In this document: one piece after another, positions 8,534-53,034 of the stretch
Numbering within the stretch: position 1 is the first letter of the stretch
Layout: each line of letters begins with the position of its first letter
Source of the DNA: a virus
Length of the DNA: 59,200 nt
Strand: one strand, 5' to 3'
Virus record (IMG/VR): IMGVR_UViG_3300040856_002284
Coordinates: 1 to 59,200 of that record
Notes under the pieces: generated by a model
The model's input: the letters and a program-made list of their open reading frames with translations, nothing else
What the model was told of the DNA's origin: nothing
Database searches by the model: none
Made by a program: the position numbers and the translations under genes

Positions 8534-8587
8534 TTTCTATTGACAAATATATAACTAAGTGTTAATATACAATATAGGCAATAGAAA
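8534..8587 (+). promoter_or_regulatory. Promoter inside a ribosome-site-sequestering inverted repeat
   Basis: TTGACA (8540-8545), 17-base spacer, TAATAT (8563-8568). Perfect 9-bp inverted repeat TTTCTATTG (8534-8542) / CAATAGAAA (8579-8587) whose right arm includes the AGAAAGG ribosome site of the gene at 8596. RNA started from this promoter (about 8575) lacks the left arm. Confidence 0.7.
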
Positions 8588-8595
8588 GGCAAACA

Positions 8596-9192
8596 ATGAA
8601 TAAGATTATTTTGACTGACTGCGACGGTGTGTTGCTCAATTGGGAATATGCATTTTGCACTTGGATGGAGCAACATGGTTATACACAAATTGAAAACGGA
8701 AACCATTACTATGATATAGGTGAACGTTTTGGTATTAGTAAAGATGAGGCAAAGACCAAATGTAAAATCTTTAATGAAAGTGCTGCTATTGGATTTCTGC
8801 CTAGTTTACGTGATGCAATGTATTATGTCAAGCGTCTGCATGAAGAACACGGTTATGAATTCCATTGTATCACAAGCCTTAGTTTAGATCCTAGTGCTTA
8901 TAAACTCCGTAAGATGAATCTTGAAAAACTATTTGGTCCAACAGCATTTACTCGTTTAGTATGTTTAGATACTGGTGCAGATAAAGATGAAGCATTAGAT
9001 GAATATGCGGATACAGGATACTATTGGATTGAAGATAAAATGTCAAATGCCTTTTTAGGATTACAATATGGCTTAAAACCTATACTTATTGAGCACGGTT
9101 TTAATATGAAAGAAAGTATTCCAGTTGGTATGAAAAAAGTAGTGAAGTGGAAAGAAATTTACGAACACATCTTAGGTAATAAAAATGAGTAA
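8596..9192 (+). CDS. HAD-like hydrolase, 5'-nucleotidase type
   Basis: 198 residues. The DCDGVLLNW motif (D8, D10) is HAD motif I as in phage 5'(3')-deoxyribonucleotidase-like proteins; CITSLS near residue 93 fits motif II and the YYWIEDK region fits motif IV. Probably a small phosphatase, perhaps acting on nucleotides. Own promoter and a possible translational switch lie upstream. Confidence 0.7.
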   Translation: MNKIILTDCDGVLLNWEYAFCTWMEQHGYTQIENGNHYYDIGERFGISKDEAKTKCKIFNESAAIGFLPSLRDAMYYVKRLHEEHGYEFHCITSLSLDPSAYKLRKMNLEKLFGPTAFTRLVCLDTGADKDEALDEYADTGYYWIEDKMSNAFLGLQYGLKPILIEHGFNMKESIPVGMKKVVKWKEIYEHILGNKNE

Positions 9193-13195: not shown

Positions 13196-13207
13196 TGACA
13201 CACACAT

Positions 13208-13233
13208 GGAAAGGCCTTTTTTTAGGCCTTTTC
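13208..13233 (+). terminator. Rho-independent terminator
   Basis: AAAGGCCT (13210-13217), T-rich loop, AGGCCTTT (13224-13231), then TTCTC. It follows the nitroreductase stop by 14 bases and comes just before the next promoter. Confidence 0.75.
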
Positions 13234-13904: not shown

Positions 13905-15101
13905 ATGAAACCAATTTACTATGTAATACCAGAGTTATCAGCTAATCCACATACAAGTGCTCACACTGAAAATCTTGGACCAAAACCAACTACACAGCTT
14001 GAGCCTTATTTTAATCATTTTGATAGATTTAATCCTAGACAATTTGTGTCTACTGAAATGTTGCCATTTTTACCCAAAGATGCAATTAAAATAATCAGCA
14101 TTTTTGTATACCTTCCGGCGAGCTGTGAATTTACAATAGATAAAAAATTAAAAAAACTTGTTAATACTGATGTTAACACATTTTTAGGTTTATGGAGTGT
14201 GCAAGAAGCTCAACTTAACGAGCATAGAATAACCGCAGCTATAGAACAAAATAAAGTAAAAAAAGAAAAAACAATACTTATAACTACAAATTATGAAAAT
14301 CATTTAAAGAAAGTTGCCGATGTAAATCATGTGTTTATAAACTATTGGGAAAGTTATACACGCAGATGTTTTAGACTTACAAGTAACTTCAGTCGTATCA
14401 CTCCAAAGCAACGATTAGAAAGTTTAGATACAGCAAACAAAAAGTTTATTTCATTAAATAGAAATGTTAGACATCATAGACTTTGGTGGTATTATGCAAT
14501 ATGTAAATTAGATATGTTAAACGAAGGTCATGTAAGTTATTTGCTACCCGAAATAAGTTTACGTCTACATGAAGATTTTTTACATGGTACATTGGTCAAG
14601 CAAAAACTTCCTGATGCAATTAAAGATAGTTTTGCAAATGATTTCAAAAAATTGTGCAAAATACGTAAATTAGATGATGCAGATAAAAAATGGATTATAA
14701 ACTTTCAAAATGGTGTTACTAACTATTATCACGATAGTCTGTTTAGTTTAGTTACAGAAAGCAGTATTAGATCTAATTTTTTAACTGAAAAAACCTATAA
14801 AGCAATTTATCATATGCACCCGTTTTTTGTAATAGGGATAAAAGATCAACACCAACTTTTAAGAGATAGAGGGTATTATACATTTGAAGATTTTTTTGGT
14901 GTAGAAGAAGTTACCGATTATTCACAAGCAATTGAACTTTTACAAAAAGTTAAAAAAACATCTATAAGTGAATATAAAACCAAAGTAAAAAAAGTTTTTG
15001 ACAAATTAGAACATAACATGTATAATTTTATTAATCGTGAAATAAGTTGGACTGACTTTGAACGAGACTTGCGTAAGGCTATAAATGGACAAATACGGTA
15101 A
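13905..15101 (+). CDS. Possible glycosyltransferase-like protein heading the radical SAM run
   Basis: 398 residues. The segment from about 270 to 325 (SLFSLVTESS, then FLTEKTYKAIYHMHPFFVIG) resembles the nucleotide-sugar-binding region of fucosyltransferase/exostosin-like enzymes, where an invariant TEK is followed by a hydrophobic strand; the rest is not recognisable. No signal peptide. The first of seven genes that overlap each other up to 21692. Function is inferred weakly. Confidence 0.5.
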   Translation: MKPIYYVIPELSANPHTSAHTENLGPKPTTQLEPYFNHFDRFNPRQFVSTEMLPFLPKDAIKIISIFVYLPASCEFTIDKKLKKLVNTDVNTFLGLWSVQEAQLNEHRITAAIEQNKVKKEKTILITTNYENHLKKVADVNHVFINYWESYTRRCFRLTSNFSRITPKQRLESLDTANKKFISLNRNVRHHRLWWYYAICKLDMLNEGHVSYLLPEISLRLHEDFLHGTLVKQKLPDAIKDSFANDFKKLCKIRKLDDADKKWIINFQNGVTNYYHDSLFSLVTESSIRSNFLTEKTYKAIYHMHPFFVIGIKDQHQLLRDRGYYTFEDFFGVEEVTDYSQAIELLQKVKKTSISEYKTKVKKVFDKLEHNMYNFINREISWTDFERDLRKAINGQIR

Positions 15102-16278
15102 AAACTTTTGTATGGCACCTTGGGTGCATATGAGCGTCTGGCAGACTGGAGACGCTTACCCGTGTTGCATTTACGATTGGAATAAACCTATCGGAAATAT
15201 AAACGAAAATGGGTTTAAGGGTGTTTGGAATAGCCATAAGATGCGCCAACTTAGACTTGATATGCTTCAAGATAGAGCCAGTCCAGGTTGTTCTAAATGC
15301 ATTATGTATGATAATCAAGGAATACTAAGTTATAGGTATAAATTTAATAATGAATATATTCACCATTACGATTTAGTAGAAACAACAAAAGAAGATGGCA
15401 GCGTAGATAAATTAAATGTTGCTTACTTTGATGTTAGATTTAGTAATCTTTGTAATATGAAATGTCGAACATGTGGTCCTCATTTTAGCAGTAAATGGGC
15501 AGAAGATACAGAAGGCAAACCTCGTGTTGTAGAAATTAATCACCCAGGTATGTGGGAAGAAATAGAAACAATGCTGCCTAATATAGAAGAAATATATTTT
15601 ACAGGTGGCGAGAGTATGTTTATGGATCAGCACTATAAGTTACTAGATTTGCTTATACAAAACAACTTAAAACCAAAACTAACCTATAATAGCAATGGCA
15701 GTAGATTAAGTCTAAAAAACAAACATATAAAAGATTACTGGAATCACTTTGATAATATATTCTTTGGCATAAGTTTAGATCAAATTGAATCTAAAGCTGA
15801 GTACACTAGACATGGACAACCGTGGAATACTATACTAGAAAATTTACTTTACATTAGAAACGAATTTCCACAGGTAACTATACAACCAAATCCTACAATA
15901 AATGTTTACAATATTTTAAACTTAAGAGAAATAGTGAACTTTTTGTTTAAATATAATCTTGCTACAGATTATGATATAAATTTAAGTAATATTTTAGTAG
16001 GTCCTAACTATTTAAGTTGTACTATATTACCACAAGAACTCAAAGACGTTGCTGTAAAAAAATTAGATCAATTGATTAAGGATTTTGATTACTTTGATAT
16101 GTATCCACAACGTAAAGATTTTTTAACTGATCAAGTTAACAACATAAAAAATTATTTGCAAAGCAAAGATGATACTGATCTTATACCAAAATTTAAAGAA
16201 GAAATGCAAAAGTTAGATAACATAAGGAATGAAAACTTTATAAAAGTATTTCCAGAATTGAGAGTGCTGTATGACTAA
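15085..16278 (+). CDS. Radical SAM protein with N-terminal SPASM-like module (cluster gene 1)
   Basis: 397 residues. N-terminal module: C9, C27-C28, C69xxC72, including an IGNI segment and VWNSHKMRQLR that read like a SPASM domain (normally C-terminal in this superfamily). Then the radical SAM core with C123, C127, C130 and TGGES at 173-177. It would cleave SAM to a 5'-deoxyadenosyl radical; the substrate is unknown. Starts 17 bases inside the previous gene. Closest in the window to the next gene: both begin FCM(A/M)PWVHM. Confidence 0.88.
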   Translation: MDKYGKNFCMAPWVHMSVWQTGDAYPCCIYDWNKPIGNINENGFKGVWNSHKMRQLRLDMLQDRASPGCSKCIMYDNQGILSYRYKFNNEYIHHYDLVETTKEDGSVDKLNVAYFDVRFSNLCNMKCRTCGPHFSSKWAEDTEGKPRVVEINHPGMWEEIETMLPNIEEIYFTGGESMFMDQHYKLLDLLIQNNLKPKLTYNSNGSRLSLKNKHIKDYWNHFDNIFFGISLDQIESKAEYTRHGQPWNTILENLLYIRNEFPQVTIQPNPTINVYNILNLREIVNFLFKYNLATDYDINLSNILVGPNYLSCTILPQELKDVAVKKLDQLIKDFDYFDMYPQRKDFLTDQVNNIKNYLQSKDDTDLIPKFKEEMQKLDNIRNENFIKVFPELRVLYD

Positions 16279-17464
16279 TAAAACTTTTTGCATGATGCCT
16301 TGGGTTCATATGCATCTTTGGCCGGCTGGTTATACATATCCTTGTTGTATGGCAGATCCAGAATTACCTGTTGGTAACACACAAACACAAAGTTTACAAG
16401 ATATTTGGAATGGTCCAGAGATGCGTCAGTTGCGTCTCAATATGCTACAAAACAAACAATCACCCGAATGCCGGCGTTGTTATGAACTTGAAGAAAATGG
16501 TATGTGGACATTGCGTAAGAGCTCAAACGAAAACTTTAAACATCATCAAAACAAAGTTGAAGAAACTAGCGATGATGGCAGTGCAGGTGACATAAACATG
16601 GCATACATGGATATACGTTTCAGTAACCTGTGTAATTTAAAATGTCGTAGTTGTGGTCCGCAATTCAGCAGTAGTTGGTTCGAAGATCACAAACAAACAC
16701 ACGGCGATCCAGGGCATCCTAAAATACTTAAAGTGCGTGATGACATGTTGAGCTTTATGGATGAACTAGATCCGTTGCTTGAAAGTGTAGAACGTGTATA
16801 TTGGGCAGGCGGTGAACCATTGATAACAGACGAACACTATAGAATACTTGACAAATGGATTGCTATGGGTAAACGTGATGTTAAAATGGATTATACGACA
16901 AATTTTACACAAATGCGTTACAAACGTAAAACAGCATTTGAATATTGGAATGCGTTTGAAAATGTGCGTGTAGCAGCAAGTTTAGATGCTAATCATGCCC
17001 GCGGTGAATACTTGCGTAAAAATATGGACTGGGCACAGGTTGTGCAAAACCGTCGTGATATGATTGAGCAGTGTCCTCAAGTGTATTTTGAAATTACGCC
17101 AACGGTTAGTGTTTACAATGTTTTCAATCTACCCGACTTCCACAAAGAATGGATAGAAGAAGGGTTATTAGAACCTCAAAACATACGAATTAATATTTTA
17201 TTAGATCCTACTTACATGCGTTTAAGTTTATTACCACCTTGGTTAAAAGATAAAGTTAGATTAAGATACATGGAGCATTTAAAGTATTTAGACCAATTTG
17301 ATAATATAAATGAAGTAAAAAACAATTACGAAAGTATTTTAAAATTTTTAAGTGACGATCATTCAGACGAAATAAAAATGTTTTTATTTAAAACAAAGCG
17401 TATGGATATGGTTAGGCAAGAAAGTTTTCAAAAAATATTTCCAGAACTAAGAGATATAGAATGA
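16271..17464 (+). CDS. Radical SAM protein with N-terminal SPASM-like module (cluster gene 2)
   Basis: 397 residues, same architecture and same length as cluster gene 1: C7, C25-C26, C67xxC70, then CNLKCRSC with C121, C125, C128 and AGGEP near residue 180. The radical SAM motif is followed by GPQFSSSW as in gene 1 (GPHFSSKW). Overlaps gene 1 by 8 bases. Probably a tandem duplicate that has diverged. Confidence 0.88.
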   Translation: MTNKTFCMMPWVHMHLWPAGYTYPCCMADPELPVGNTQTQSLQDIWNGPEMRQLRLNMLQNKQSPECRRCYELEENGMWTLRKSSNENFKHHQNKVEETSDDGSAGDINMAYMDIRFSNLCNLKCRSCGPQFSSSWFEDHKQTHGDPGHPKILKVRDDMLSFMDELDPLLESVERVYWAGGEPLITDEHYRILDKWIAMGKRDVKMDYTTNFTQMRYKRKTAFEYWNAFENVRVAASLDANHARGEYLRKNMDWAQVVQNRRDMIEQCPQVYFEITPTVSVYNVFNLPDFHKEWIEEGLLEPQNIRINILLDPTYMRLSLLPPWLKDKVRLRYMEHLKYLDQFDNINEVKNNYESILKFLSDDHSDEIKMFLFKTKRMDMVRQESFQKIFPELRDIE

Positions 17465-18669
17465 ACGACACATATTGTGTATACCCATTTATAAACGTAC
17501 ATACAAACACAGACGGAAGATGTAAATTATGCTGTCATGTTTATAGCGAAGATTATATACAGGCAGACGGACATGACGCTGTGTTAGGCAAAGACCGTTG
17601 GGAAAATATTTGGAATGGCGAATACATGTTAAATGTACGAGCTAATATGTTAGCAGGAAAGCCTGTTAAAGAATGTAGTCGCTGCTACGAGCACGAAGAA
17701 AAAGGTTTACAAAGCAGTAGGCAATGGGCAAACGCTAACTATAAAGCGCCATTACTGCATAGCAATCCTACTCACCTGGAACTTAGGCTTGGTAATCACT
17801 GCAACTTAAAGTGTAATAGTTGTTGGAGTGTTAGCAGCGACAACATTTACAAAGAACGCAAAAAGATTATGAGCAAAGAGCGTTTACCTACTTGGTTGCA
17901 TGATCAATGGGCACACGAAATACGCAGTGTAGAAGAACACGACTGGCAATGGTATGAAACACAAGAGTTTCGTGACTTTGTAGATACGGTAGCACCTACA
18001 TTAGAACGTTTGTACATGACAGGTGGAGAGCCTACCCTTATACAAGCAAACCAGTATGTGTTGGATAAACTTGTTGAAGTTAGCAATACAAAATGTCATG
18101 TTGCATGGACTACAAACATGACAACATGGCCAGAAGGATTTTATGATAAACTAGATTTCTTTAACAGCAGTGAAGTACAGATGAGTATAGATGGATATGG
18201 TGATCATAACATGTATATCCGCTATCCTACAGATTGGAACAAAGTTGAAGAAAACTTTGCAAAAGCAATGACACTGCCGGAAAAAGTACAACTCAAAATT
18301 TATTTTGTATATCAAGCATGGAATGTGTTTGATGTTGCACCATTAGTAAAGTGGCTAGAAAGCACACAAACAAGGCGTGTTGACTTTGTGCCTATCTTCT
18401 TAGAGCATCCTGATCAATTACATAGTTGTGTATGGCCTAACGAAATTTTGCATAAAGCATTAGATGATTTGCGTATGATTAAAACAACACACCATAAAGA
18501 TCCTGTACAAAGAATCATTAACTACACACTTAATACGGATAAATACAGCGTAGAAAACATAAAACGTATGAAGCAATTTATTGCTATAAATGACAAATAT
18601 AGAAAACACAAGTTTAGTACTATATTTCCATTGTTAGATTTAATATTGGAAACTGAATGCAAGATATAA
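17461..18669 (+). CDS. Radical SAM protein with N-terminal SPASM-like module (cluster gene 3)
   Basis: 402 residues: C6, C21, C24-C25, C72xxC75, then HCNLKCNSC (C114, C118, C121) and TGGEP near residue 185. The extra C21 differs from its paralogues. ATGA overlap with gene 2. The His-Cys and similar pairs use TGC after a codon ending AC, part of the ACTGT avoidance described in the findings. Confidence 0.88.
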   Translation: MNDTYCVYPFINVHTNTDGRCKLCCHVYSEDYIQADGHDAVLGKDRWENIWNGEYMLNVRANMLAGKPVKECSRCYEHEEKGLQSSRQWANANYKAPLLHSNPTHLELRLGNHCNLKCNSCWSVSSDNIYKERKKIMSKERLPTWLHDQWAHEIRSVEEHDWQWYETQEFRDFVDTVAPTLERLYMTGGEPTLIQANQYVLDKLVEVSNTKCHVAWTTNMTTWPEGFYDKLDFFNSSEVQMSIDGYGDHNMYIRYPTDWNKVEENFAKAMTLPEKVQLKIYFVYQAWNVFDVAPLVKWLESTQTRRVDFVPIFLEHPDQLHSCVWPNEILHKALDDLRMIKTTHHKDPVQRIINYTLNTDKYSVENIKRMKQFIAINDKYRKHKFSTIFPLLDLILETECKI

Positions 18670-19649
18670 AAGCTATTATTCCAGCAAAGGATAAATGGGT
18701 AAGTTTAGTTTGGCAGGTTAATGATTGGTGCAACTTCCGTTGCACTTATTGTTCAGAATGGAATTGGGCGGGCCGTAATAAAAACGATAGCGATATAGAT
18801 ACTATTGTAAACACACTTGAACGTATTATCAAAACATATCAAGATAAAGGTTACAGATATTTTAAATTATATCTCAGTGGAGGAGAACCAACCTACTGGG
18901 CAGCATTGTTACCTGTCGTAAACAAGTTTAGAGAAATGGTAGAGTGGCCTGGTAGCAGTGTAGGCATTAACACAAACTTCAGTAGACCGTTGAGTTGGTG
19001 GGAAGAACATCATCACTTGTTTGAAGATGTTGTTGCAAGTTATCATCCTGAATGGACAAAAGAAGAAAAGTACATGATCAACTACAAGTTTCTACAAGAT
19101 AAGAAGAACTACTTGTGTAGTCGTGTAATGATGCAAAAAGAAAACTTCCAACAATGTGTGGATTTTACACAGCGTATAAAAGACGAATGCGACAATTACA
19201 TAATTGAATACGCACCTGTGTATGATGCATTACGTCCAAGCACTGATCCTTATCATTATGATGATCCGGAACAACTTGCATTTATTAAAAGTCACACTAC
19301 AGATAGACAACAAAAAATAGAAATAAAAAAGCAACCTAACTATGCATGGGCAAAAACTTGGTTTGAAGATGATAGTATAGAACCAATTGACACAAATGCT
19401 ATTATTGTAGAAGGCAAAAACTTTTTCAAAGGATGGACTTGTAACATACATGAAAGTTTACACATACATCCAAACGGAAACATTCAACAAGCCAGTTGCG
19501 GTGTAGGTCCTATAGTAGGCAACATTGTGCGTGGAGAGTTTAACGATTTGCTTACCGAAGGCGTAATTTGTCCAAAACATCATTGTCATTGTGCTGCTGA
19601 CTTTAACATCACCAAAGCAAGGCCTGAATATGCAAAAGAAATACAATAA
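18657..19649 (+). CDS. Radical SAM protein with C-terminal cysteine cluster (cluster gene 4)
   Basis: 330 residues and different in plan: the radical SAM motif CNFRCTYC (C25, C29, C32) is at the very start, SGGEP follows near residue 75, and the extra cysteines are at the C-terminus (GWTC, QASCG, ICPKHHCHC), i.e. a conventional C-terminal auxiliary-cluster position. Probably performs a different step from its neighbours. It does not show the CX14CX2C pattern of QueE-type enzymes, so a queuosine role is unlikely. Overlaps gene 3 by 13 bases. Confidence 0.85.
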   Translation: MQDIKAIIPAKDKWVSLVWQVNDWCNFRCTYCSEWNWAGRNKNDSDIDTIVNTLERIIKTYQDKGYRYFKLYLSGGEPTYWAALLPVVNKFREMVEWPGSSVGINTNFSRPLSWWEEHHHLFEDVVASYHPEWTKEEKYMINYKFLQDKKNYLCSRVMMQKENFQQCVDFTQRIKDECDNYIIEYAPVYDALRPSTDPYHYDDPEQLAFIKSHTTDRQQKIEIKKQPNYAWAKTWFEDDSIEPIDTNAIIVEGKNFFKGWTCNIHESLHIHPNGNIQQASCGVGPIVGNIVRGEFNDLLTEGVICPKHHCHCAADFNITKARPEYAKEIQ

Positions 19650-20982
19650 AGATACATATTGTCATAGTGCTATGCATAGTTTTAGTTTACACAGCAATGG
19701 TAGAACTAGACCCTGTTGTGTAAGTAAAGTTCATACATCAAAATTTATGCCAGGAACAGATGTTCAACGATATCCTGCCTATTCATCTAATCCAGATCAT
19801 TATCAAGTTGCTGCGGACATAGAAGAATTTGTAAATGACGATAGTCTAAAACAAATTAGGAAACAAATGCTAAACGGTGAGAAGCCTGATGCTTGTAAAG
19901 AATGTTTTAACTTAGAACAAAAAGGTATAAAAAGTTTTAGACAATTACATAATGATGACCACATTGAAGATATTGATACAACATTAGAAAACATAAACGA
20001 AGATGGCAGTGTTGATATTAAGGCAATAAATTATTTAGATGTTACACTAGGAAATGTTTGCAATTTAAAATGTCGTACTTGTAATCCTTGGGCTAGTCAT
20101 AGTTGGTTAGATGAAGCACCAACCGTACCTCATAATGAATTTACAAAAACTACTTATATTGTAAGTAAAATGAGCAGCCAAAATCCGTGGTTTTTACAAG
20201 CATTTGAAACAGGATTTTTTGACGAAGTTCTACCTAATGTATCCACAATCAACTTTTTAGGAGGTGAACCTTTAGTTGTAAAAGAACATTATGCTTGGTT
20301 AGAAAAAATTGTAAAAATGGGTTATTCAAAAAACATAACATTACAATACAACAGCAATGGCACAACCATACCAAAAAAAATACTAGATGTATGGAAAAAT
20401 TTTAAACAGATTGTTTTGAGTTTAAGCATAGATGCAGTTGACGAATTAGCGTATTACGTTAGACATCCTAGTAAATGGCATGTAATACAGCGTAATGTAG
20501 GTAAGTTAGCAATTTACACAAGAACAAATTCAAACCTAAGTGTGCAAACTCATGTAACTTTAAGCAGCTTAAACATTCATGCACTACCTAAAATTATTGC
20601 ATGGTGCGGACAAAATTACAAGACCTGGAATCACATTGATAAATCTGATAACAACAATTGGAGACATCATGGGTATGAAAACTTTTTACCTCATTTCAAT
20701 ATAGTTGAACGCCCTTACAACATGCACATGTGTCATATACCAGATAATGTTAAAAGTGACATGTGTAAAATGTTAGACGATCTATATAAGAGTTTAAAAA
20801 ATTCATCTATACCAGAATGGGAAAAACATAGTTTAGAAAACATTTTAAATTTAAAAAACATAATTAACCAACCTCGTAGTGAAAAAGAATGGAACAACTT
20901 TTTGGACAACACAAAAGCCAGTGACAGGTTTAGAAATGTAAACATAACTGATTACGTTCCTTGGATTAAAGAATGCATGTAA
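19630..20982 (+). CDS. Radical SAM protein with N-terminal SPASM-like module (cluster gene 5)
   Basis: 450 residues from ATG 19630, 20 bases inside the previous gene; an in-frame ATG at 19591 is possible but would add residues that the paralogues lack. C11, C29-C30, C89xxC92, then CNLKCRTC (C144, C148, C151) and LGGEP near 215. Longer than the other members, with an extra stretch between CC and CxxC and a longer C-terminus. Confidence 0.86.
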   Translation: MQKKYNKDTYCHSAMHSFSLHSNGRTRPCCVSKVHTSKFMPGTDVQRYPAYSSNPDHYQVAADIEEFVNDDSLKQIRKQMLNGEKPDACKECFNLEQKGIKSFRQLHNDDHIEDIDTTLENINEDGSVDIKAINYLDVTLGNVCNLKCRTCNPWASHSWLDEAPTVPHNEFTKTTYIVSKMSSQNPWFLQAFETGFFDEVLPNVSTINFLGGEPLVVKEHYAWLEKIVKMGYSKNITLQYNSNGTTIPKKILDVWKNFKQIVLSLSIDAVDELAYYVRHPSKWHVIQRNVGKLAIYTRTNSNLSVQTHVTLSSLNIHALPKIIAWCGQNYKTWNHIDKSDNNNWRHHGYENFLPHFNIVERPYNMHMCHIPDNVKSDMCKMLDDLYKSLKNSSIPEWEKHSLENILNLKNIINQPRSEKEWNNFLDNTKASDRFRNVNITDYVPWIKECM

Positions 20983-21692
20983 TATATAGAAAAACACTTG
21001 CAAAAAACTTTAGATACACAACAAACATTTATAATCATCGCTATGGGTGTAACGACGAAGAAGCAAAAAATAAAAATACATTAGAATTGTACATAAACAA
21101 GGCAAAAATGTATTATGTATCGCAACAGATCAAACCAAACACATATTTTTACTTGGAATTGGTCAATGTTTCGCTAGGGTATTTTGCAGTTGTTGTAGCA
21201 ATAGCAGAATTACAATGCATAATTACAAACAACAAAAACGAAGCCGACATAACAATCGATAGGATTGAATTAGATAATATTTTAAGTTATAATATTGTTG
21301 ATAGTAAAAAATGCACTAGTGTAAATAAAAAAATTCCTACTATGGATACACCTTTATATAAAAGGTTTGATAAAACATATACACATAGAGAATGTTTTGA
21401 TGCTAGTAGAATAAATTTTGATGATATAAAAGGCGAAGTGTTAATAGTTTCTAATGATACTTTGATACATAACCTTCTTAATGTATTGTTTCCTGTGTTA
21501 ATCAATTCTAATATTGGCAATAGACTAGCACTTGGTTATTATAACTTTGAAGATGCTAAACATAAAATTGCACACACAGCCATACATCATAGTATTGATC
21601 AAATATTCTTGCCAAGTGGTGTTGATTCAAGTGTAAAAAAAGAAATAGAAAATATTACACCAAATGTAAAAATTAGGTATTTTTGTTATTGA
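20973..21692 (+). CDS. Unknown protein closing the radical SAM run
   Basis: 239 residues, no confident family. The hydrophobic stretch near 65-85 and the order HNLLNVLFPVL ... QIFLPSG ... NVKI in the last third faintly resemble the middle of adenylate-forming (ANL) enzymes, but the ATP loop and the C-terminal domain are absent. Overlaps gene 5 by 10 bases, so it is made together with the radical SAM enzymes and may be a partner. It is followed directly by a new promoter. Confidence 0.5.
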   Translation: MHVIYRKTLAKNFRYTTNIYNHRYGCNDEEAKNKNTLELYINKAKMYYVSQQIKPNTYFYLELVNVSLGYFAVVVAIAELQCIITNNKNEADITIDRIELDNILSYNIVDSKKCTSVNKKIPTMDTPLYKRFDKTYTHRECFDASRINFDDIKGEVLIVSNDTLIHNLLNVLFPVLINSNIGNRLALGYYNFEDAKHKIAHTAIHHSIDQIFLPSGVDSSVKKEIENITPNVKIRYFCY

Positions 21693-21734
21693 CAACGCTG
21701 TTTTTTTATGCTACAAAACACGAACTAGCATAAA
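21689..21734 (+). promoter_or_regulatory. Promoter inside a ribosome-site-sequestering inverted repeat
   Basis: TTGACA (21689-21694), 17-base spacer, TACAAA (21712-21717). Perfect 9-bp repeat TTTATGCTA (21705-21713) / TAGCATAAA (21726-21734), extendable by two G-U pairs over the AAAGGAG ribosome site of the gene at 21745. The left arm overlaps the -10 box and would be missing from RNA started at about 21724. Confidence 0.65.
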
Positions 21735-21744
21735 GGAGCAAGCA

Positions 21745-21942: not shown

Positions 21943-22461
21943 ATGAATACATGGGTAATAAGTGATACACACTTTAATCACGCTAACATATTAACATTCA
22001 AAGATTATGCTGGCAAACCTCCTAGAGTGTTTGACAATGTAGAACATATGAACGAGTGTATGATGGACAATTGGGTTGATTGTGTTAAACCAAACGACAC
22101 TATCTACCACTTAGGCGATGTGTTGTTTGGTATGGATAAAGTTGAATGGTTGGAAAATAACTTTGCCAAGTTGCCTGGTAAGAAAAAACTTATCTTAGGC
22201 AATCATGACAATCCAAAGTTTCTTGCACCTTTCTTTAAGGATATAATGCTTTGGAGAGATATGAGTGACATAGGATTGTTGTTGAGCCATACGCCGCAAC
22301 ACGCAAGTACACTTGCAGAGTCGCACAGATTTGGTACTGACCCAATACTAAACGTTCACGGACACATACACAGCAACCCTTCACCAGAAGGACCATACAA
22401 ATGTGTGTGTGTTGAGCAAACTAATTTTTCACCGGTCAACTTAGATTCACTTTTAGGTTGA
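21943..22461 (+). CDS. Calcineurin-like metallophosphoesterase
   Basis: 172 residues. All metal-binding blocks are present: D8-x-H10 (SDTHFNH), GD at 58-59, GNHD at 86-89, H116, and GHIH at 140-143. Small phage-type phosphoesterase, probably acting on phosphodiesters or cyclic/linear nucleotides. TAGGAGGG precedes the ATG. Confidence 0.85.
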   Translation: MNTWVISDTHFNHANILTFKDYAGKPPRVFDNVEHMNECMMDNWVDCVKPNDTIYHLGDVLFGMDKVEWLENNFAKLPGKKKLILGNHDNPKFLAPFFKDIMLWRDMSDIGLLLSHTPQHASTLAESHRFGTDPILNVHGHIHSNPSPEGPYKCVCVEQTNFSPVNLDSLLG

Positions 22462-22535
22462 CCACCTACACAATATAGTGTATGTTATACACATAGCGCA
22501 TTTGGTAGTCGGGAGGCAAATGCCCAACTTAAAGG
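22450..22535 (+). promoter_or_regulatory. Promoter inside an 11-bp ribosome-site-sequestering pairing
   Basis: TTGACC (22458-22463), 17-base spacer, TATGTT (22481-22486). CTTTTAGGTTG (22450-22460) can pair over its full 11 bases (two G-U) with CAACTTAAAGG (22525-22535), which holds the ribosome site of the gene at 22544. A second perfect 7-bp hairpin GCATTTG (22498-22504) / CAAATGC (22517-22523) sits inside. Confidence 0.6.
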
Positions 22536-22543
22536 AAAACGTT

Positions 22544-26104: not shown

Positions 26105-26796
26105 TGAATTATGTAGTTTGTCTAAAATGGGGTGACAAATATAGTGCAGACTATGTAAACAAATTACAAAGCATGGTGCAGCGTAATCTTTCGCTGCCCT
26201 ATGAATTTGTTTGCTTTACTGAAAACACTGATGGAATCACAAAAAATATTCGTACTGAAAAACTGCCAAAGTTACCTGTAACTGGCTGGTGGTATAAACC
26301 TTGGTTCTTTAGTAACGAAATTGGTTTAGAAGGTACAATACTTTTTTTAGATTTAGATTTGATTGTATTTCAAAACATAGACAAACTTTTCACTTATGAA
26401 CCTAAAAAGTTCTGTATTATACAAGACTTTAATAGAAAGTTTCATAGAAATTTTACAAGAGTAAATTCAAGTGTGTTTAGATTTCAAAGCGGACAATTTG
26501 TAGATCAATACAAAGACTTTGTACAAAACAGACAAAAATATTTAACAAGATATAAAGGAGACCAAGATTGGATTTATGCTAAAATGCCTAATCACACATT
26601 TTGGCCTCAAGAGTGGATACAAAGTTACAAATGGGAAATGCGTGGTAGACAATATCTTACACTAAAAAATGGAGTTAGAAATTTTACAGAGCCAGGCATA
26701 CCAGATATTTTACCAGAAACAAGCATTGCAGTATTTCATGGACAGCCTAATATGCATGATTGTATAGATAATTGGCCTAAACAAAATTGGCGTTAA
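26104..26796 (+). CDS. GT8-like glycosyltransferase
   Basis: 230 residues. FLDLDLIVF (81-89) carries the DxD metal/nucleotide-sugar motif (D83, D85) in the glycogenin/LgtC-type context, with an N-terminal Rossmann-like start and a later GDQDWIYA segment typical of GT8. Likely transfers a hexose to a surface, virion or lipid acceptor. ATG overlaps the previous stop; it ends tail-to-tail with the minus-strand radical SAM gene (4-base overlap). Confidence 0.75.
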   Translation: MNYVVCLKWGDKYSADYVNKLQSMVQRNLSLPYEFVCFTENTDGITKNIRTEKLPKLPVTGWWYKPWFFSNEIGLEGTILFLDLDLIVFQNIDKLFTYEPKKFCIIQDFNRKFHRNFTRVNSSVFRFQSGQFVDQYKDFVQNRQKYLTRYKGDQDWIYAKMPNHTFWPQEWIQSYKWEMRGRQYLTLKNGVRNFTEPGIPDILPETSIAVFHGQPNMHDCIDNWPKQNWR

Positions 26797-27878
26797 AATT
26801 TACTCCAGTACTCAGGAAACATATTACTATAGGATGAAAAGTTTGGATATTTTCCTATTGCATTTTTTTCCTTTTCTAAAATTATACTTTTGGTATCTAT
26901 TGTTTGACAATCTTGTTTAAGAAAAGAGCAAACACTATCATATTTTGATCCACTAGATTTATATTTAAGAAGTAGCTCTTTTTTTAACACATTATTTAAA
27001 GAACTTATTTCAAGACCATATGGGTATGTCAAAATATTGACATTGGATCCAACATTGTAATTATCAAAAAACTTCACCGTTTTATCTATTTCAAAAATAT
27101 TGTATACACTTGCTGTAATTACAACATGTAAATTCGGAAATAATTTATGATATCTTTCAAAGTTTTTAATCCATTTCTCCCAAACTAACCCTGTTCTTGT
27201 ATATTCTGCCATTTTTTCAATGCCATCCATACTAATATGAAATTCTAAATCTTTAAAACTTTTTAATGTTTTTATTTCTTTTTCACTTAATTTTATAGTG
27301 CCATTGGTGTTTATTTGTAATGTAATATTCTTTGCATAATTTTTTTCTACACAAAAATTTAATAACTTCCAAGACTCTTGATCAAATAAAATTTCTCCTC
27401 CTGTCATGTAAAGATATTCTATAGTTGATAGACTTTCGTAGATACTATTGTATAATCTACTATGAGGTTTAACAAAATCTATAACTTTAGATTCTCCAAA
27501 TTGTTCTTGCCAATGTAAACTACTAAATTGTGATGAACACATCCTACAAGCTAAATTACACTTATTGTTGAATCCTATGTGCAAATATTTAAGTTCAGGA
27601 TTAAATTTATTTTCTTTTATGTCCACGTCTACACTTTTTATTTTATTAAAAATGTTATAATAGGCATGTTTTGTATCTGACACCTTACATTTGTTGCATA
27701 CTTTGGGTATAGAATGACCAAGTGTTTGTTGCAAGTCTGAAAAGTTATGTTGATGCTCTTTAATGGATAAACTATTATTTCCAGCAACACCAGGTTGGTA
27801 CCAACAGCAAGGCTGTACTAATCCTCCTAATATACTAATAGCAATACTAGGTGCCGAACATATGCTTTTTTTGCTCAT
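26793..27878 (-). CDS. Radical SAM protein with N-terminal SPASM-like module, minus strand
   Basis: 361 residues from ATG 27878; the frame is open further upstream to 28082 but that part reads as random hydrophobic sequence and overlaps a promoter and a plus-strand gene. C7, C24-C25, C61xxC64, then CNLACRMC (C107, C111, C114) and TGGE near residue 150. Same plan as the tandem cluster. An AATAAATA late-type box lies 5 bases before the ATG with no ribosome site, so it may be expressed late and leaderless. Confidence 0.86.
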   Translation of the reverse strand: MSKKSICSAPSIAISILGGLVQPCCWYQPGVAGNNSLSIKEHQHNFSDLQQTLGHSIPKVCNKCKVSDTKHAYYNIFNKIKSVDVDIKENKFNPELKYLHIGFNNKCNLACRMCSSQFSSLHWQEQFGESKVIDFVKPHSRLYNSIYESLSTIEYLYMTGGEILFDQESWKLLNFCVEKNYAKNITLQINTNGTIKLSEKEIKTLKSFKDLEFHISMDGIEKMAEYTRTGLVWEKWIKNFERYHKLFPNLHVVITASVYNIFEIDKTVKFFDNYNVGSNVNILTYPYGLEISSLNNVLKKELLLKYKSSGSKYDSVCSFLKQDCQTIDTKSIILEKEKNAIGKYPNFSSYSNMFPEYWSKF

Positions 27879-27883
27879 AAAAA

Positions 27884-27891
27884 TATTTATT
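27884..27891 (-). promoter_or_regulatory. Late-type box AATAAATA, minus strand
   Basis: Ends 5 bases before the ATG of the minus-strand radical SAM gene. It overlaps the -35 box of the opposite promoter by two bases, so the two promoters are back to back. Confidence 0.4.
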
Positions 27892-27917
27892 GACATTTTA
27901 TAAAGTGCGTGTATAAT
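27890..27917 (+). promoter_or_regulatory. Sigma70-like promoter, leaderless arrangement
   Basis: TTGACA (27890-27895), 16-base spacer, TATAAT (27912-27917). The predicted start of transcription (7 bases past the box) is exactly the A of ATG 27924; no ribosome site precedes that ATG. Confidence 0.7.
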
Positions 27918-27923
27918 TAGAAT

Positions 27924-28097
27924 ATGGTTAGAACTTATATGATGTATGCAGGTCTTACTTTTCTTGGCTATGAGTATGGCGAGACAGAAGATGCAGTAAT
28001 TTTTAGAACGGTGGCTAAGTTTGGTCATCCAAACAAGTGGAATGAAGAGGAATATACAGCAAAACTTATTCCACATCCACAAGAGGTAACAGCGTGA
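27924..28097 (+). CDS. Phage protein of unknown function, 57 aa
   Basis: ATG 27924 gives 57 residues; ATGs at 27939 and 27942 are alternatives. No domain recognised. Its TGA overlaps the GTG start of uvsE. Confidence 0.55.
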   Translation: MVRTYMMYAGLTFLGYEYGETEDAVIFRTVAKFGHPNKWNEEEYTAKLIPHPQEVTA

Positions 28098-46164: not shown

Positions 46165-46719
46165 ATGCTTATGAGAACAGATGAACTAGGTATTCCACGA
46201 TTTACAAATCGCGATCTTATCGATATGATCTATAGTGGTCATGCGGATAAAGTTCATGTGGTGTTGTGTAATCCTACAGATGAAATAGACAAGTTCAATG
46301 CTGCTATGGAAGAACAAGGCTTTGACAAACTGCAAAAATATATTCCATTAGATGTAGATCAAAAGACTTTTGACGGTGTATGTCAAAGTGAATGGTTTAT
46401 GCCTGATGAATATAAGACACTTGCTATAGAAGAGTGGGTTGCTGCCAAACTTATGGAAGAACTACAATGCGAAGACTTTCATATTGAAACTACACCCGAA
46501 TGGGATAGAGCATACGAAGAATTACAGGAATTTAAAAAGCGTGGTATGAATGACTTGTTACGCTATATGATCTATCTTGTAGACTTTATGCGTGAGAATG
46601 GGATAGTATGGGGTGTAGGTAGAGGATCAAGTGTTGCCAGTTATGTGTTGTATTTGATTGGTGTACATAGAATTGATAGTATTAAATTTGGATTAGACTG
46701 GCGTGAATTTTTACGTTGA
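46165..46719 (+). CDS. Truncated DNA polymerase III alpha (DnaE)-like protein
   Basis: 184 residues. The C-terminal half matches the part of C-family polymerases leading into the active site: a YEELQEFKKRGMNDLL helix, VDFMRENGIVWGVGRGSS (GRGS loop at 152-155) and IDSIKFGLDWREFL. The protein stops just where DnaE would continue to the catalytic PDxDxDF, so catalysis is not expected. The N-terminal half is unrecognised. Perhaps a regulatory or nucleotide-binding relic; second ATG at 46171 possible. Confidence 0.65.
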   Translation: MLMRTDELGIPRFTNRDLIDMIYSGHADKVHVVLCNPTDEIDKFNAAMEEQGFDKLQKYIPLDVDQKTFDGVCQSEWFMPDEYKTLAIEEWVAAKLMEELQCEDFHIETTPEWDRAYEELQEFKKRGMNDLLRYMIYLVDFMRENGIVWGVGRGSSVASYVLYLIGVHRIDSIKFGLDWREFLR

Positions 46720-47302
46720 ATATAAAGATGAAAGAGAAAGAGCTTTCCATCATGTAAGTAATTTAAGCACATTAAACATAAAAGAACATTCATTTTGTGT
46801 GCAAATGACCGCTAAACCTTACAAACTTTTTTTAACTCCAAATTGTAATACTCACGAAAATAAAAATTACAAATTTAATAAAAAAATGATTTTTGGAGAT
46901 ATTAAAGTACACAAGAAAAAATTTGGATTAAAAGAGTATAACAGAATTATTTCTCGGTTAGATATTTCTAAAAGATTTATGTTACACATAACCAATGTTC
47001 CTTTTGCAACTAGCGAATATAAGCCAATTACAGAGCATGGTAATATTTTTGGTATAATTAAAATGTTTTATGATCAAACTGATGAACTTTTTTTAGAAAT
47101 ACACAACAAAATATTATATCCTTATCAAGAAAAAAAGTTTAAAAAACAATTGAAAAATGATAAAGAATTTTGGTTACAATACTTGAATGTAAACACCAAA
47201 ATTCAATATTTTTCAATGGCTACGGAATTAGCAAACGACAACCTTAGTTGGCATATTTGTAAACCATTATATCAAGATAAAGTATTAACAAATTTTAAAT
47301 AA
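46703..47302 (+). CDS. Phage protein of unknown function, 199 aa
   Basis: GTG start at 46703, overlapping the previous gene by 17 bases. Lys/Asn/Phe-rich, strongly AT-biased codons like the radical SAM run. It is not a continuation of DnaE in another frame: no PDxDxDF or finger motifs appear. No domain recognised. Confidence 0.55.
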   Translation: MNFYVEYKDERERAFHHVSNLSTLNIKEHSFCVQMTAKPYKLFLTPNCNTHENKNYKFNKKMIFGDIKVHKKKFGLKEYNRIISRLDISKRFMLHITNVPFATSEYKPITEHGNIFGIIKMFYDQTDELFLEIHNKILYPYQEKKFKKQLKNDKEFWLQYLNVNTKIQYFSMATELANDNLSWHICKPLYQDKVLTNFK

Positions 47303-47308
47303 TAAATA
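47301..47308 (+). promoter_or_regulatory. Late-type box AATAAATA
   Basis: 17 bases before ATG 47326, followed by a GAAGGAG ribosome site. Confidence 0.5.
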
Positions 47309-47325
47309 TTCATGAAGGAGCCGAC

Positions 47326-47673
47326 ATGGTTAGTAAAAGTAAAGGTAGAAAAATATATAGAACTGCCCAGGGTAAACAAATTGATTTAGATATGCTTATC
47401 AAAAGAAATGAGTTGACACCTGCGGTAGGTAATGCTAAAGTAAATGCACGAGGTGACGAATTAGGTCCAGGTGGAAAAATTATTCGTAAACGTGAAGAGA
47501 TAATGCAAAATTATTATAGCAGTTTACCAGAAGAAAATCCAAAAAAATCTTCTTCTAGAGAATTTGTACCACCAACTAGTGCAGTTGCCGATGCAGAAGC
47601 AAAAGAATTAGCAGAATTTGACAACGAATGGGTTGAAGATGCTGATGGTAACTTTGTAAAGAAAGGTGGATAA
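47326..47673 (+). CDS. Conserved T4-like marine phage protein, 115 aa
   Basis: Basic N-terminus (SKSKGRKIYRTAQGK), a VNARGDELGPGGKI turn-rich centre and an acidic C-terminus. I recognise the look of a widespread small cyanophage-type protein, possibly structural, but no function. Stop overlaps the next ATG. Confidence 0.65.
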   Translation: MVSKSKGRKIYRTAQGKQIDLDMLIKRNELTPAVGNAKVNARGDELGPGGKIIRKREEIMQNYYSSLPEENPKKSSSREFVPPTSAVADAEAKELAEFDNEWVEDADGNFVKKGG

Positions 47674-48050
47674 TGAGCGAAGGAATGGGTGGTGGATTTA
47701 AAGTCACACCAAAAATTAAAGGCAAACTCAGCCCAATTAGAAATAGAGTAATTGTTAGAGATATGCACTTTGGTGAGCAAGTCACACGTAGTGGGCTTAT
47801 TCTAACAGGCGATGATGGTACCAGTAGAGGTATATATCCACGTTGGTGTCGTGTCCATGCAAAAGGACCTGAAAACACAGACGACTACAATGTAGGAGAT
47901 TGGATCCTAGTAGAACATGGTCGTTGGACAAGAGGCATAGATGTTGATGAAGGCGACGGAGAATCGACACTGCGTATGGTAGAAGCAGAAAGCATTATGG
48001 GCTGGAGCAAAGAAAAACCAGAAGACGTTTTCATTGGCGAAGAGGTATAA
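47673..48050 (+). CDS. GroES/gp31-like co-chaperonin
   Basis: 125 residues. LSPIRNRVIVRDMHFGEQVTRSGLIL (residues about 19-44) is the GroES first strand and mobile loop; VGDWILVEHGRW matches the later GDxVLxxxy segment. T4 gp31 replaces GroES in folding the major capsid protein, and this protein likely works with host GroEL in the same way. Codes with the MazG-like gene directly after it. Confidence 0.8.
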   Translation: MSEGMGGGFKVTPKIKGKLSPIRNRVIVRDMHFGEQVTRSGLILTGDDGTSRGIYPRWCRVHAKGPENTDDYNVGDWILVEHGRWTRGIDVDEGDGESTLRMVEAESIMGWSKEKPEDVFIGEEV

Positions 48051-48410
48051 ATGACAAATCCATTTGCAGATATTGAACGCTTTGGCTCGGCGTGTGACCA
48101 AGAGCCATCAGAAGCAAACTACAAAATGTATCTTGATCTAATTCGAGAAGAAACAGACGAACTAGAAGAAGCCATTCTAGACAATGACAAGGTAGAACAA
48201 CTAGATGCACTAGTAGATATCCTTGTTGTTACTATGGGTGCTATTCGTGCCGCGGGTTGGGACGGGGAAGGTGCTTGGAAAGAAGTAATGGATACTAACT
48301 TTGCTAAGATTAATCCAGAAACAGGCAAAGTTATTAAACGTGAAGACGGTAAGGTACTGAAGCCAGAAGGATGGAAGGCTCCAGAACTAGAAAAATTTGT
48401 AGGAGAGTGA
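48051..48410 (+). CDS. MazG-like nucleotide pyrophosphohydrolase (A)
   Basis: 119 residues. EETDELEEA (33-41) and D52...D56 in LDALVDILV are the ExxE...D metal-binding helices of all-alpha NTP pyrophosphatases. Would hydrolyse a (d)NTP or alarmone to the monophosphate. No gap to the GroES-like gene. Confidence 0.75.
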   Translation: MTNPFADIERFGSACDQEPSEANYKMYLDLIREETDELEEAILDNDKVEQLDALVDILVVTMGAIRAAGWDGEGAWKEVMDTNFAKINPETGKVIKREDGKVLKPEGWKAPELEKFVGE

Positions 48411-48411
48411 T

Positions 48412-49098
48412 ATGGTAGCAAGAACAGCAAATATTGCAAGTAGGGCGTATGACGAAGGCTTGCGTAAATTCATGATCAATATGTATAACCACACTGCTAC
48501 AGGATTAGCAGTAAGTGGTTTTATTGCCTACCTTGTTTATACAACAGGTATGGTATACAGCATGGGTGCCTTAATGTGGGTGTTCATGTTTGCTCCGCTA
48601 GGCATGATTTTATATTATGGCTTTGCAGGACAAAACTGGAGCCTACAGGGCATTACACGTTTTTACTATGCATTTACAGCAGTAATGGGTGTAAGTATGA
48701 GCACTATCTTTGTGGTGTATACAGCGACGAGCATTGCTCAAGTATTTTTTATCACAGCAGCAACATTCGCAGCAGCCAGTCTATACGGATACACTACAAA
48801 ACGTGACCTCACCACAATGGGTAGTTTTCTCATTGTAGGCTTGATTGGCATTATTATTGCTAGTATTGTAAACATCTTTCTAGCAAGTAGTGCATTTGCA
48901 TTTGCTATCAGTATCATTGGTGTGCTTATTTTTGTAGGTATGACAGCATGGGATACACAAACTGCAAAGAACTTGTACCTTTCTGCACCTAATATGGAAG
49001 TAGCAGAAAAGTACGGTGTGCAAATGGCATTGAGTCTTTACTTAGACTTTGTGAATCTATTCCAATTTTTGTTGTCTTTATTAGGCAATAGAGAATAA
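48412..49098 (+). CDS. Bax inhibitor-1/YccA-family membrane protein
   Basis: 228 residues with about seven transmembrane segments. The N-terminal RAYDEGLRKFMINMYNHTATGL and the C-terminal GMTAWDTQTAKNLY are family signatures and look like alphaproteobacterial members. BI-1 proteins affect membrane ion leak and, in bacteria, FtsH-linked proteolysis. In a phage it might protect the host membrane until lysis; this is inference. Confidence 0.88.
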   Translation: MVARTANIASRAYDEGLRKFMINMYNHTATGLAVSGFIAYLVYTTGMVYSMGALMWVFMFAPLGMILYYGFAGQNWSLQGITRFYYAFTAVMGVSMSTIFVVYTATSIAQVFFITAATFAAASLYGYTTKRDLTTMGSFLIVGLIGIIIASIVNIFLASSAFAFAISIIGVLIFVGMTAWDTQTAKNLYLSAPNMEVAEKYGVQMALSLYLDFVNLFQFLLSLLGNRE

Positions 49099-49105
49099 AA
49101 ACTTA

Positions 49106-49157
49106 TTGACACCCTCTGTGAGTTGTGCTATAAGTGTAGTGTAACAAACACAGAGGG
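49106..49157 (+). promoter_or_regulatory. Promoter inside a ribosome-site-sequestering inverted repeat
   Basis: TTGACA (49106-49111), 17-base spacer, TATAAG (49129-49134). Perfect 9-bp repeat CCCTCTGTG (49112-49120) / CACAGAGGG (49149-49157); the right arm holds the GAGGGG ribosome site of the gene at 49164. RNA started at about 49141 lacks the left arm. Confidence 0.7.
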
Positions 49158-49163
49158 GTTTCT

Positions 49164-49709
49164 ATGAATATTGATTATGTAACTACTATGCAACGTGTGG
49201 GCGAAGTCATTTGTAAACCAGGACATGAAAAAAGACTAGAATTTGCATGGGATGAAAGCATGACTAAAGAAATGCAACGTGATGAACGTGGCAGAGTATA
49301 TGCTTTGTGTGCCGACGGTGAAATACAAAAAATAGGTGGCAGTCAAGCCAAAGGTGGTATTGCCGCAACATATGGTGCTTACTTTTCGGGTTTTGCAAAA
49401 GGCATGAGCGCAAGAACATATTGCGTCTGGCATTACATGACTAAATGTATTGCAGAAGGCAAAAAAGTAGAAGTATATTGCGTATGGGCTCCTTTGGTAG
49501 AAGTTACTATTCCTACAATGAATAGTACTATTACAAAAGAAATGCCTATTGATTATCATACAATTGAAAATGCATTTGTCCACGAATTTGTTGATAAAGA
49601 AGGTCGTTTCCCTTATCTAAATATGCAAGAAAGTGGTGGACGCTGGCAAGATACTGGTTTACTTGAAGGTTACGGTGGACTTTGGGTTCCTGAAGAGGAG
49701 ACTGCGTAA
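49164..49709 (+). CDS. GIY-YIG-like protein (tentative)
   Basis: 181 residues. The segment from about 44 to 115 (VYALCADGEIQKIGGS, then TYCVWHYMTKCIAEGKKVEVYCVW) has the order of a GIY-YIG nuclease core (VYxL... xxKIG ... YxxxxxxxxG), but the first motif is divergent and the catalytic Glu is uncertain. Could be a nuclease or only share the fold. Own promoter with the hairpin arrangement described above. Confidence 0.45.
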   Translation: MNIDYVTTMQRVGEVICKPGHEKRLEFAWDESMTKEMQRDERGRVYALCADGEIQKIGGSQAKGGIAATYGAYFSGFAKGMSARTYCVWHYMTKCIAEGKKVEVYCVWAPLVEVTIPTMNSTITKEMPIDYHTIENAFVHEFVDKEGRFPYLNMQESGGRWQDTGLLEGYGGLWVPEEETA

Positions 49710-50239
49710 TGGCAATTCATGCAATGATTGACCTAGAAACACTAGATGTAACACCAAATGCAAGTGTATTAACCGTAGGCGGTGTAAAGTTTGATCCTAA
49801 TACCGATAGTGAACCTCATAGTGAGTTTTATTATAAACTGGATTTAGATGCACAAAGCAGTCGTAAGGTAAATGATAGCACTATTGCTTGGTGGGGTCAA
49901 CAAGATCCTAAAATACAGGAGGAAGCGTTTAGCGAACACGGCCGTGTGCATCCACGTGAGTTTTTAGATCACTTGCCTAAATGGATGGTAGGTGTGGATG
50001 TGCTATGGGGACATGGCTACGGGTTTGATATTACAATCATTGAAGATATGTTGCGTCAACTTGGTAACCCTATTCCTTGGCAATTTTGGCAAGTTCGTGA
50101 TAGCCGCACATTGTTTGCACTAGCAAAGACGGATCCACGTAAAGCAATGCAAAGTGATTTACACAATGCATTAGCAGATGCTTACTTTCAAGCAAAAGGT
50201 GTGCAAATGGTTTATAAAGAACTTGGAGTTACAAAATGA
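49709..50239 (+). CDS. DEDDh 3'-5' exonuclease
   Basis: 176 residues. D8 and E10 (MIDLETL), D107 (GYGFDIT), H152 and D157 (LHNALADA) form the DEDDh set; the domain resembles T4 DexA/Rv2179c-type exonucleases, which degrade single-stranded DNA or RNA ends. ATG overlaps the previous stop. Confidence 0.82.
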   Translation: MAIHAMIDLETLDVTPNASVLTVGGVKFDPNTDSEPHSEFYYKLDLDAQSSRKVNDSTIAWWGQQDPKIQEEAFSEHGRVHPREFLDHLPKWMVGVDVLWGHGYGFDITIIEDMLRQLGNPIPWQFWQVRDSRTLFALAKTDPRKAMQSDLHNALADAYFQAKGVQMVYKELGVTK

Positions 50240-51710: not shown

Positions 51711-52621
51711 AAGAACTATGGGTAGAAAAGTATCGTCCAAAGACGGTAGAAGGATATGTGTTTAGAGATGACGCACAAAGAAATCAAGTTAAAACATGGA
51801 TCAAAGATAAAACTATTCCGCATTTGCTTTTTAGTGGCAATGCTGGGATTGGTAAAACTACTCTTGCTAAATTACTTTTTAATGAGTTGGATGTAAATCC
51901 ATTAGACATACTAGAGATTAACGCAAGTCGCACAAACTCAGTAGATGATGTGCGTGATAAAATTGTTTCGTTTGTACAAATGATTCCATTTGGCGATTTC
52001 AAGGTTGTGTTACTAGATGAGGCTGATTACTTATCGCCAAACGCACAAGCAGCATTGCGTGGTGTTATGGAAGAATATCACAGCACAGCAAGATTTATTT
52101 TAACTTGTAATTATCCTAACCGCATTATTCCTGCTATCCACAGCAGATGCCAAGGTTTCCATATCGCTAAGATTGACCAAACTGAGTTCACAGCTAGAGT
52201 TGCAGAAATCCTGATTACAGAAGGAGTTACACCTGATTTGGATACGCTGGACACTTATGTGAAAGCAACTTATCCAGACTTGCGTAAGTGTATCAACATG
52301 GTGCAGATGAATTCAGTAGAAGGTAAACTTGTAAGCCCACAAGAAGGCGATAGTGGTGAGAGCGACTGGAAATTGGATATGGTAGAATTGTTCAAAGCAG
52401 GTAAAATTGGTGATGCACGAAAGTTGTTGTGCGGATCTGTACGTGCAGAAGAAATGGAAGAAATTTATCGTTGGCTTTATGATAACATCGAATTATTCGG
52501 AAGTGAAGATAAACAAGATCAAGCAGTGCTAATTATTAAGCAAGGGCTTGTTGATCACACACTTGTAGTAGATCCAGAAATTAATCTTGCAGCAACACTA
52601 ATTAGATTAGGAGCATTATGA
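51707..52621 (+). CDS. 44: Clamp loader ATPase subunit (T4 gp44/RFC small subunit-like)
   Basis: 304 residues from ATG 51707. KYRPKT at the start, Walker A GNAGIGKTT (44-52), Walker B VLLDEAD (101-107), arginine-finger SRC (146-148): the RFC/gp44 set. Loads the sliding clamp onto primer-template DNA for phage replication and late transcription. The small partner (gp62) is not seen in the window. Overlaps the kinase gene by 4 bases. Confidence 0.92.
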   Translation: MKELWVEKYRPKTVEGYVFRDDAQRNQVKTWIKDKTIPHLLFSGNAGIGKTTLAKLLFNELDVNPLDILEINASRTNSVDDVRDKIVSFVQMIPFGDFKVVLLDEADYLSPNAQAALRGVMEEYHSTARFILTCNYPNRIIPAIHSRCQGFHIAKIDQTEFTARVAEILITEGVTPDLDTLDTYVKATYPDLRKCINMVQMNSVEGKLVSPQEGDSGESDWKLDMVELFKAGKIGDARKLLCGSVRAEEMEEIYRWLYDNIELFGSEDKQDQAVLIIKQGLVDHTLVVDPEINLAATLIRLGAL

Positions 52622-53034
52622 AAATTTTAATTATGGGATTGCCAGGTAGTGGCAAAACACATCTGGCAGAACGTTTGCAAAAACATTTAGATTGTGCTTG
52701 GTACAATGCAGATGAAGTAAGGCGTATGGCAAATGACTGGGAATTTAGTGAAGACGGTCGTATTAGACAAGCACGCCGCATGAGTAATCTTGCTAATTTT
52801 GAAAAAGGTTGCGGGCGTGACGTGATTTGTGATTTTGTTTGTCCCACAGATCTAACACGACATATCTTTGAAGCTGATTACACAATTTGGATGCATACTA
52901 TTGGTGCCGGTCGTTTTGAGGATACTAATCGTATGTTTGAGCCTCCTAGTTATGCAGATCTTGTTATTGACAAATTTCTTACTGATGATAAAATTGCAAG
53001 TTTAGTAAATGTAATCACAGGAGTACATGCCTAA
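52618..53034 (+). CDS. Adenylylsulfate-kinase-like P-loop kinase
   Basis: 138 residues. Walker A GLPGSGKT (7-14), WYNADEVR near 28-35 matching the APS-kinase LDGDxVR block, and a late IGAGRFEDTNRMFEPP segment resembling the CysC family. Shorter than typical APS kinases (about 190-200 aa). Would make PAPS if active, which could feed the sulfotransferase at 29.6 kb. Stop overlaps the next ATG. Confidence 0.68.
   Translation: MKILIMGLPGSGKTHLAERLQKHLDCAWYNADEVRRMANDWEFSEDGRIRQARRMSNLANFEKGCGRDVICDFVCPTDLTRHIFEADYTIWMHTIGAGRFEDTNRMFEPPSYADLVIDKFLTDDKIASLVNVITGVHA

Follow-up and report, generated by a model that had tools for sequence, protein, structure and literature searches.

Candidate promoter-specific translation switches at sigma70-type promoters of a phage genome and its relatives

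Can a phage gene within a co-directional array ignore read-through RNA and be translated solely from its own promoter? The question is raised by a locus of a 59.2-kb IMG/VR virus record, analysed over its whole length of 59,200 nt (hereafter the window). An earlier note described there a promoter nested in a hairpin that would hide the ribosome site only in read-through RNA. The window has 36% G+C, encodes 13 tRNAs and carries nearly all genes on the same strand; its gene content includes a gp44-like clamp loader, thymidylate synthase, PhoH, an endolysin and a baseplate/tail-fibre-like protein. No close DNA-level match to the window was found among phage records. The gene at 8596 had its best protein match in Phage C48C1 (156 kb, Kyanoviridae).

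Other features of the window were recorded. At 13905-20982 and 26793-28082 lie series of ORFs alike in size, some matching models of radical SAM/SPASM proteins. A QueD-like gene (25604) is close to a QueE-like gene. Of two overlapping ORFs at 52618-53444, one corresponds to the N-terminal and the other to the C-terminal portion of a single kinase family (PHROG 10255), which could mean either a split gene or a frameshift. Among short ORFs at 46165-50239, one (46165) matches a DNA polymerase family and another (49709) an exonuclease family; at just 176-184 aa each, they are possibly pieces of a split enzyme.

In the proposed mechanism, sigma70-type promoter DNA around the -35 and -10 boxes would double as the 5′ arm of an RNA hairpin, the 3′ arm of which contains the Shine-Dalgarno (SD) sequence of the gene. 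RNA entering from upstream would carry both arms, fold and hide the SD, while RNA from the internal promoter would start 3′ of the left arm and leave the SD open. As the left arm is 5′ of the start, the helix could form only in RNA coming from further upstream. The gene would then be translated only upon firing of its own promoter. Transcription starts at all sites were predicted, and we infer promoter use, read-through and the translation block. With this reservation, we consider it likely that such loci are promoter-specific translation switches.

Inverted repeats at promoters of the window

The perfect 9-bp inverted repeat described at 8534-8587 (site 1) was confirmed, TTTCTATTG and CAATAGAAA being exact reverse complements, as was the placement of the right arm over the SD of the 8596 gene. 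The repeat was also said to bracket the promoter, and this held in part. The right arm lies 3′ of the promoter, but the left arm, ending at 8542, runs into TTGACA (8540-8545; 17-nt spacer; TAATAT at 8563-8568) and so shares bases with the -35 box instead of being entirely external to it. In the shuffle check, with free bases shuffled and hexamers held fixed, a stem as long as that of site 1 arose in 0.18% of trials. By folding, the predicted probability of an unpaired SD fell from 0.67 in own-promoter RNA to 0.13 in read-through RNA.

Table 1. Coordinates of the hairpin arms, promoter and downstream genes in the window
Feature	Position	Strand	Remarks
Site 1 left arm TTTCTATTG	8534-8542	+	right after stop codon of upstream gene; overlaps -35 box; stem p = 0.0018
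Site 1 sigma70-like promoter TTGACA-17-TAATAT	8540-8568	+	kept by almost every relative of the 8596 gene
Site 1 right arm CAATAGAAA	8579-8587	+	covers most of SD AGAAAGG (8583-8589)
Gene downstream of site 1, 198 aa, PHROG 420 family	8596-9192	+	ATG at 8596; relatives annotated phosphatase
Site 21705 left arm TGTTTTTTTATGCTA	21699-21713	+	spacer and -10 of TTGACA-17-TACAAA (21689-21717)
Site 21705 right arm TAGCATAAAGGAGCA	21726-21740	+	includes SD AAAGGAG; 15 contiguous pairs with G-U
Gene downstream of site 21705, 62 aa	21745-21933	+	
Site 22450, rejected	22450-22543	+	SD accessibility unchanged
Site 49112 left arm CCCTCTGTG	49112-49120	+	inside spacer of TTGACA-17-TATAAG (49106-49134)
Site 49112 right arm CACAGAGGG	49149-49157	+	contains SD
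Gene downstream of site 49112, 181 aa, endonuclease-like (PHROG 1111)	49164-49709	+	

The same layout had been reported to recur at 21705, 22450 and 49112. Stems and folding bore this out for 21705 and 49112, which are stronger than site 1 and are the clearest cases in the window. The stem at 21705 comprises 9 Watson-Crick pairs, extended to the full length in Table 1 by G-U pairs, and that at 49112 has 9 pairs, 6 of them G-C, together with an inner helix. Predicted SD unpaired probabilities were 0.00 in read-through and 0.44 in own-promoter RNA for 21705 (promoter 21689), and 0.01 and 0.52 for 49112 (promoter 49106). No relatives of the 21745 gene were found in IMG/VR. For the 49164 gene, one identical contig was found; other relatives were diverged and without the promoter. 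The sequence TTAGGCAATAGAG occurs upstream of 49106.

At 22450 the claim failed. Predicted SD accessibility was 0.64 in read-through and 0.66 in own-promoter RNA, and 0.60 and 0.58 in a homologue (L088), and the site is therefore not a member. Its left arm is sequestered, by folding, in a stronger 12-bp upstream hairpin. That hairpin (GGTCAACTTAGA/TTTTAGGTTGACC), upstream of the leader hairpin, and the leader hairpin itself (GCATTTG-GTAGTCGGGAGG-CAAATGC, 22499-22524) are both kept in the homologue, which is 70% identical. Sites 7978 and 13247 had been called weaker and were indeed so, with stem p values of 0.15 and 0.61 and some predicted accessibility change. A terminator-like AAGGCCTTTTTTTAGGCCTTTT (about 13205-13232) adjoins the 13236 promoter on its upstream side, so termination may stop read-through there instead. 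A further candidate at 1650 (7-bp stem) was rejected; it is not conserved in its family, and accessibility was unchanged.

Stems of at least 9 bp were found at three of the window's 12 testable TTGAC promoters (8540, 21689 and 49106), against 0.043 expected. A separate swap null over 13 window sites gave 3 seen against 0.095 expected. As positive controls for folding, T4 genes e and 49 gave predicted SD unpaired probabilities of 0.00 in read-through and 0.58 and 0.56, respectively, in own-promoter RNA. T4 soc showed no switch in folding with a predicted start; true cases can therefore escape the folding test.

To place site 1 among its relatives, 80 loci of 8596-gene relatives were compared. 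They retain the promoter, together with a TAGGCAATTAGAAAGGCAAACTATG-type leader, but not the site 1 arm TTTCTATTG; some relatives are armless, and others carry an arm in the -35/-10 spacer, paired with their own leader (TCATGTTTGT/ACAAACATGA, TTCTGTTG/CAACAGAA, TCTAATG/CATTAGA, CTATTTG/CAAATAG). The leader of the 8596 gene, TAGGCAAT(T)AGAAAGGCAAACTATG (window 8574-8598; L002-L081), is conserved far past the SD, and TAGGCA is also present in the 8027-gene and 1722-gene leaders.

The repeat at site 1 might thus be a chance one. A CAA in the conserved leader invariably matches TTG in the -35 box, the six further matches would be luck, and the family's real feature would be the spacer arm, missing in the window copy. 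No relative has an arm in the register of site 1, where the longest match is 6 bp, and close relatives, at 86% identity, show both promoter and leader yet no such arm. This register being unique among relatives, site 1 alone could be chance, and p rises to about 0.02 once 12 sites are allowed for. Against this stand the single-site value (Table 1), the predicted loss of accessibility, and the repeated arms of differing sequence in other members of the gene family. We regard chance as a possibility to be taken seriously at this site, if not the favoured one. Site 1 is probably a weaker instance that evolved locally, and the switch reading is weakest here, at the very site first named.

Position and co-variation of the arms in related phages

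A group-wide test was performed on 248 non-redundant promoter-leader pairs, taken from 2.0 Mb of DNA of related phages. Stems were in excess where the left arm began at -30 to -21 relative to the predicted start, that is, in the -35/-10 spacer. In this bin, stems of at least 8, 9 and 10 bp were seen 12, 7 and 4 times, against 2.1, 0.4 and 0.1 expected; in bins further upstream, counts among these pairs were at chance. The spacer is near the leader, absent from own-promoter RNA and free of hexamer constraint, which would explain the positional excess.

The duplex test, repeated without three positive families, still gave 7 strong sites against 0.86 expected, one of which (L168) appears to be a divergent 118-aa family member that escaped the filter. 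No strong duplex sites were found in the control region upstream of -35. The spacer excess did not recur when 130 more promoters, drawn from other contigs totalling 1.03 Mb and again without the three families, were examined (stems of at least 8 bp, 0 seen against 0.55 expected; duplex p = 0.16). An extension to every sigma70-like promoter in the group was therefore not supported, and the arrangement appears as a feature of particular gene families and scattered genes, not of every promoter.

Within families, each spacer paired better with its own leader than with swapped ones. This was the case for the phosphatase-like family (n = 45, z = -6.2, 0/5000 permutations), the 118-aa family (n = 29, z = -7.4, 0/5000 permutations) and the 65-aa family (n = 22, p = 0.0018); the swap test was without effect in the 1722-gene family (p = 0.57). 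The three families were chosen for high-scoring members and are thus discovery-selected, which does not simply explain the within-family swap tests. Many of their members are armless. In the 118-aa family, using a MAFFT alignment that was not structure-fitted, a structure drawn from one member and related rows that are not independent, 12 double-changed cells were counted against 4.8 when shuffled (0/500), and the covariation score was 0.191 against 0.115 (0/500), exceeding every slid register. Arm and leader thus co-vary in three unrelated gene families. Examples are AATAAACTCCTGCT/AGCAGGAGTTTATT, TAGTCCTGCTAT/ATAGCAGGACTA and CGCTCTGTTGTTGTT/AGCAACAACGGAGCG, and the right arms consistently contain the SD.

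These right arms bear on whether the hairpins are instead intrinsic terminators or attenuators that halt read-through transcription rather than block translation. The right arm of the 118-aa family does continue into T-rich sequence (GGAGTTTTTTTATG). The phosphatase-like and 65-aa families, however, like the sites at 8534 and 21705, have no run of T after this arm; the distance between the arms exceeds the usual terminator loop; and the SD lies consistently within the right arm. The pattern of a G+C-rich stem followed by a T-run was absent at 8587 and 21740 for want of the T-run and partial at 49157, and a + strand terminator scan found none at 8534 or 21705. We consider termination unlikely. 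That the arms act at the DNA level, as an operator through which a regulator controls the promoter, is more improbable still, for although inverted repeats do flank or overlap promoter elements, arm sequence varies by gene and relative with complementarity kept, and no common operator sequence is visible.

For the translation switch, then, the claim that read-through RNA folds over the SD while own-promoter RNA lacks the left arm agrees with predicted folding, for which T4 e and 49 were positive controls, and with spacer-leader co-variation at the family level; it was not borne out for 22450 or by the exact arm position of site 1, which relatives do not share.

Known systems, promoter class and timing

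In T4, genes e, soc, 49 and I-TevI hide the SD in upstream-started RNA and have late promoters (PMC3014915, PMC2988022); the T4 hairpin cases are all late genes (PMC2988022). As in those genes, the internal promoters here, with their starts, are predicted to be so placed that own RNA lacks the 5′ arm, and the 3′ arm covers the SD, as it covers the SD or start codon there; T4 e and 49 also show the same predicted switch by folding. The T4 cases differ in using late promoters TATAAATA, whereas the promoters here are of the TTGACA-17-TATAAT type, with the arm in the spacer (at site 1, over the -35 box) and other gene families downstream. Free-standing homing endonucleases, mobE of phage Aeh1 and segB of T4, likewise have a ribosome-binding-site hairpin on read-through RNA (PMC2988022). 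Theirs are late promoters, and the 49164 gene is only endonuclease-like by sequence. In Bacillus subtilis sigG, a hairpin blocks translation of upstream-operon RNA and cannot form in own-promoter RNA (PMC5942855). The read-through hairpin is shared with sigG, which is unlike the present cases in being a single cellular gene with a helix of 20+ bp and a sigma F/G promoter. IS10 and IS50 transposases are under fold-back control, whereby a transcript coming in from outside folds up and conceals the transposase start; that control differs in using the terminal inverted repeat of the element, as a guard against outside promoters. The logic here is that of T4 e, 49 and I-TevI. New are the sigma70-type promoter, the arm in the spacer and the spread across non-homologous families; no report of the spacer-arm arrangement was found in the open-licence literature searched.

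The T4-type late promoter TATAAATA is absent at sites 1, 21705 and 49112, all three of which have TTGACA-17-TANNNN. On the + strand of the window it occurs only at 385 and 7994, and is not in excess; the copy at 7994 sits just downstream of the TTGACA hexamer of the 8027-gene promoter. In the related phage C48C1, a TTGACA-type promoter precedes DNA polymerase, clamp, gp55 and uvsY, so the T4 direction, in which a late gene is silenced in early RNA, cannot be assumed. From this gene content, the sigma70-type promoters are probably early, and the temporal direction of T4 may be inverted here. Tentatively, the arrangement could be a mirror of T4, in which genes with sigma70-type, probably early, promoters are silenced through an anti-SD arm in the spacer whenever the RNA originates at another promoter, late promoters included, the arm arising and turning over repeatedly in unrelated genes of one large marine phage group.

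These data suggest that other phages readily evolve a switch familiar from a few T4 late genes, and do so at ordinary sigma70-type promoters, where the 17-nt spacer, left nearly free by promoters, is room for an arm. The families offer many natural compensatory arm variants for testing, a rule for spotting promoter-locked genes by sequence alone, together with a compact layout for any gene that has to disregard read-through. Should the promoters be early, the T4 logic would be run in the opposite temporal direction.
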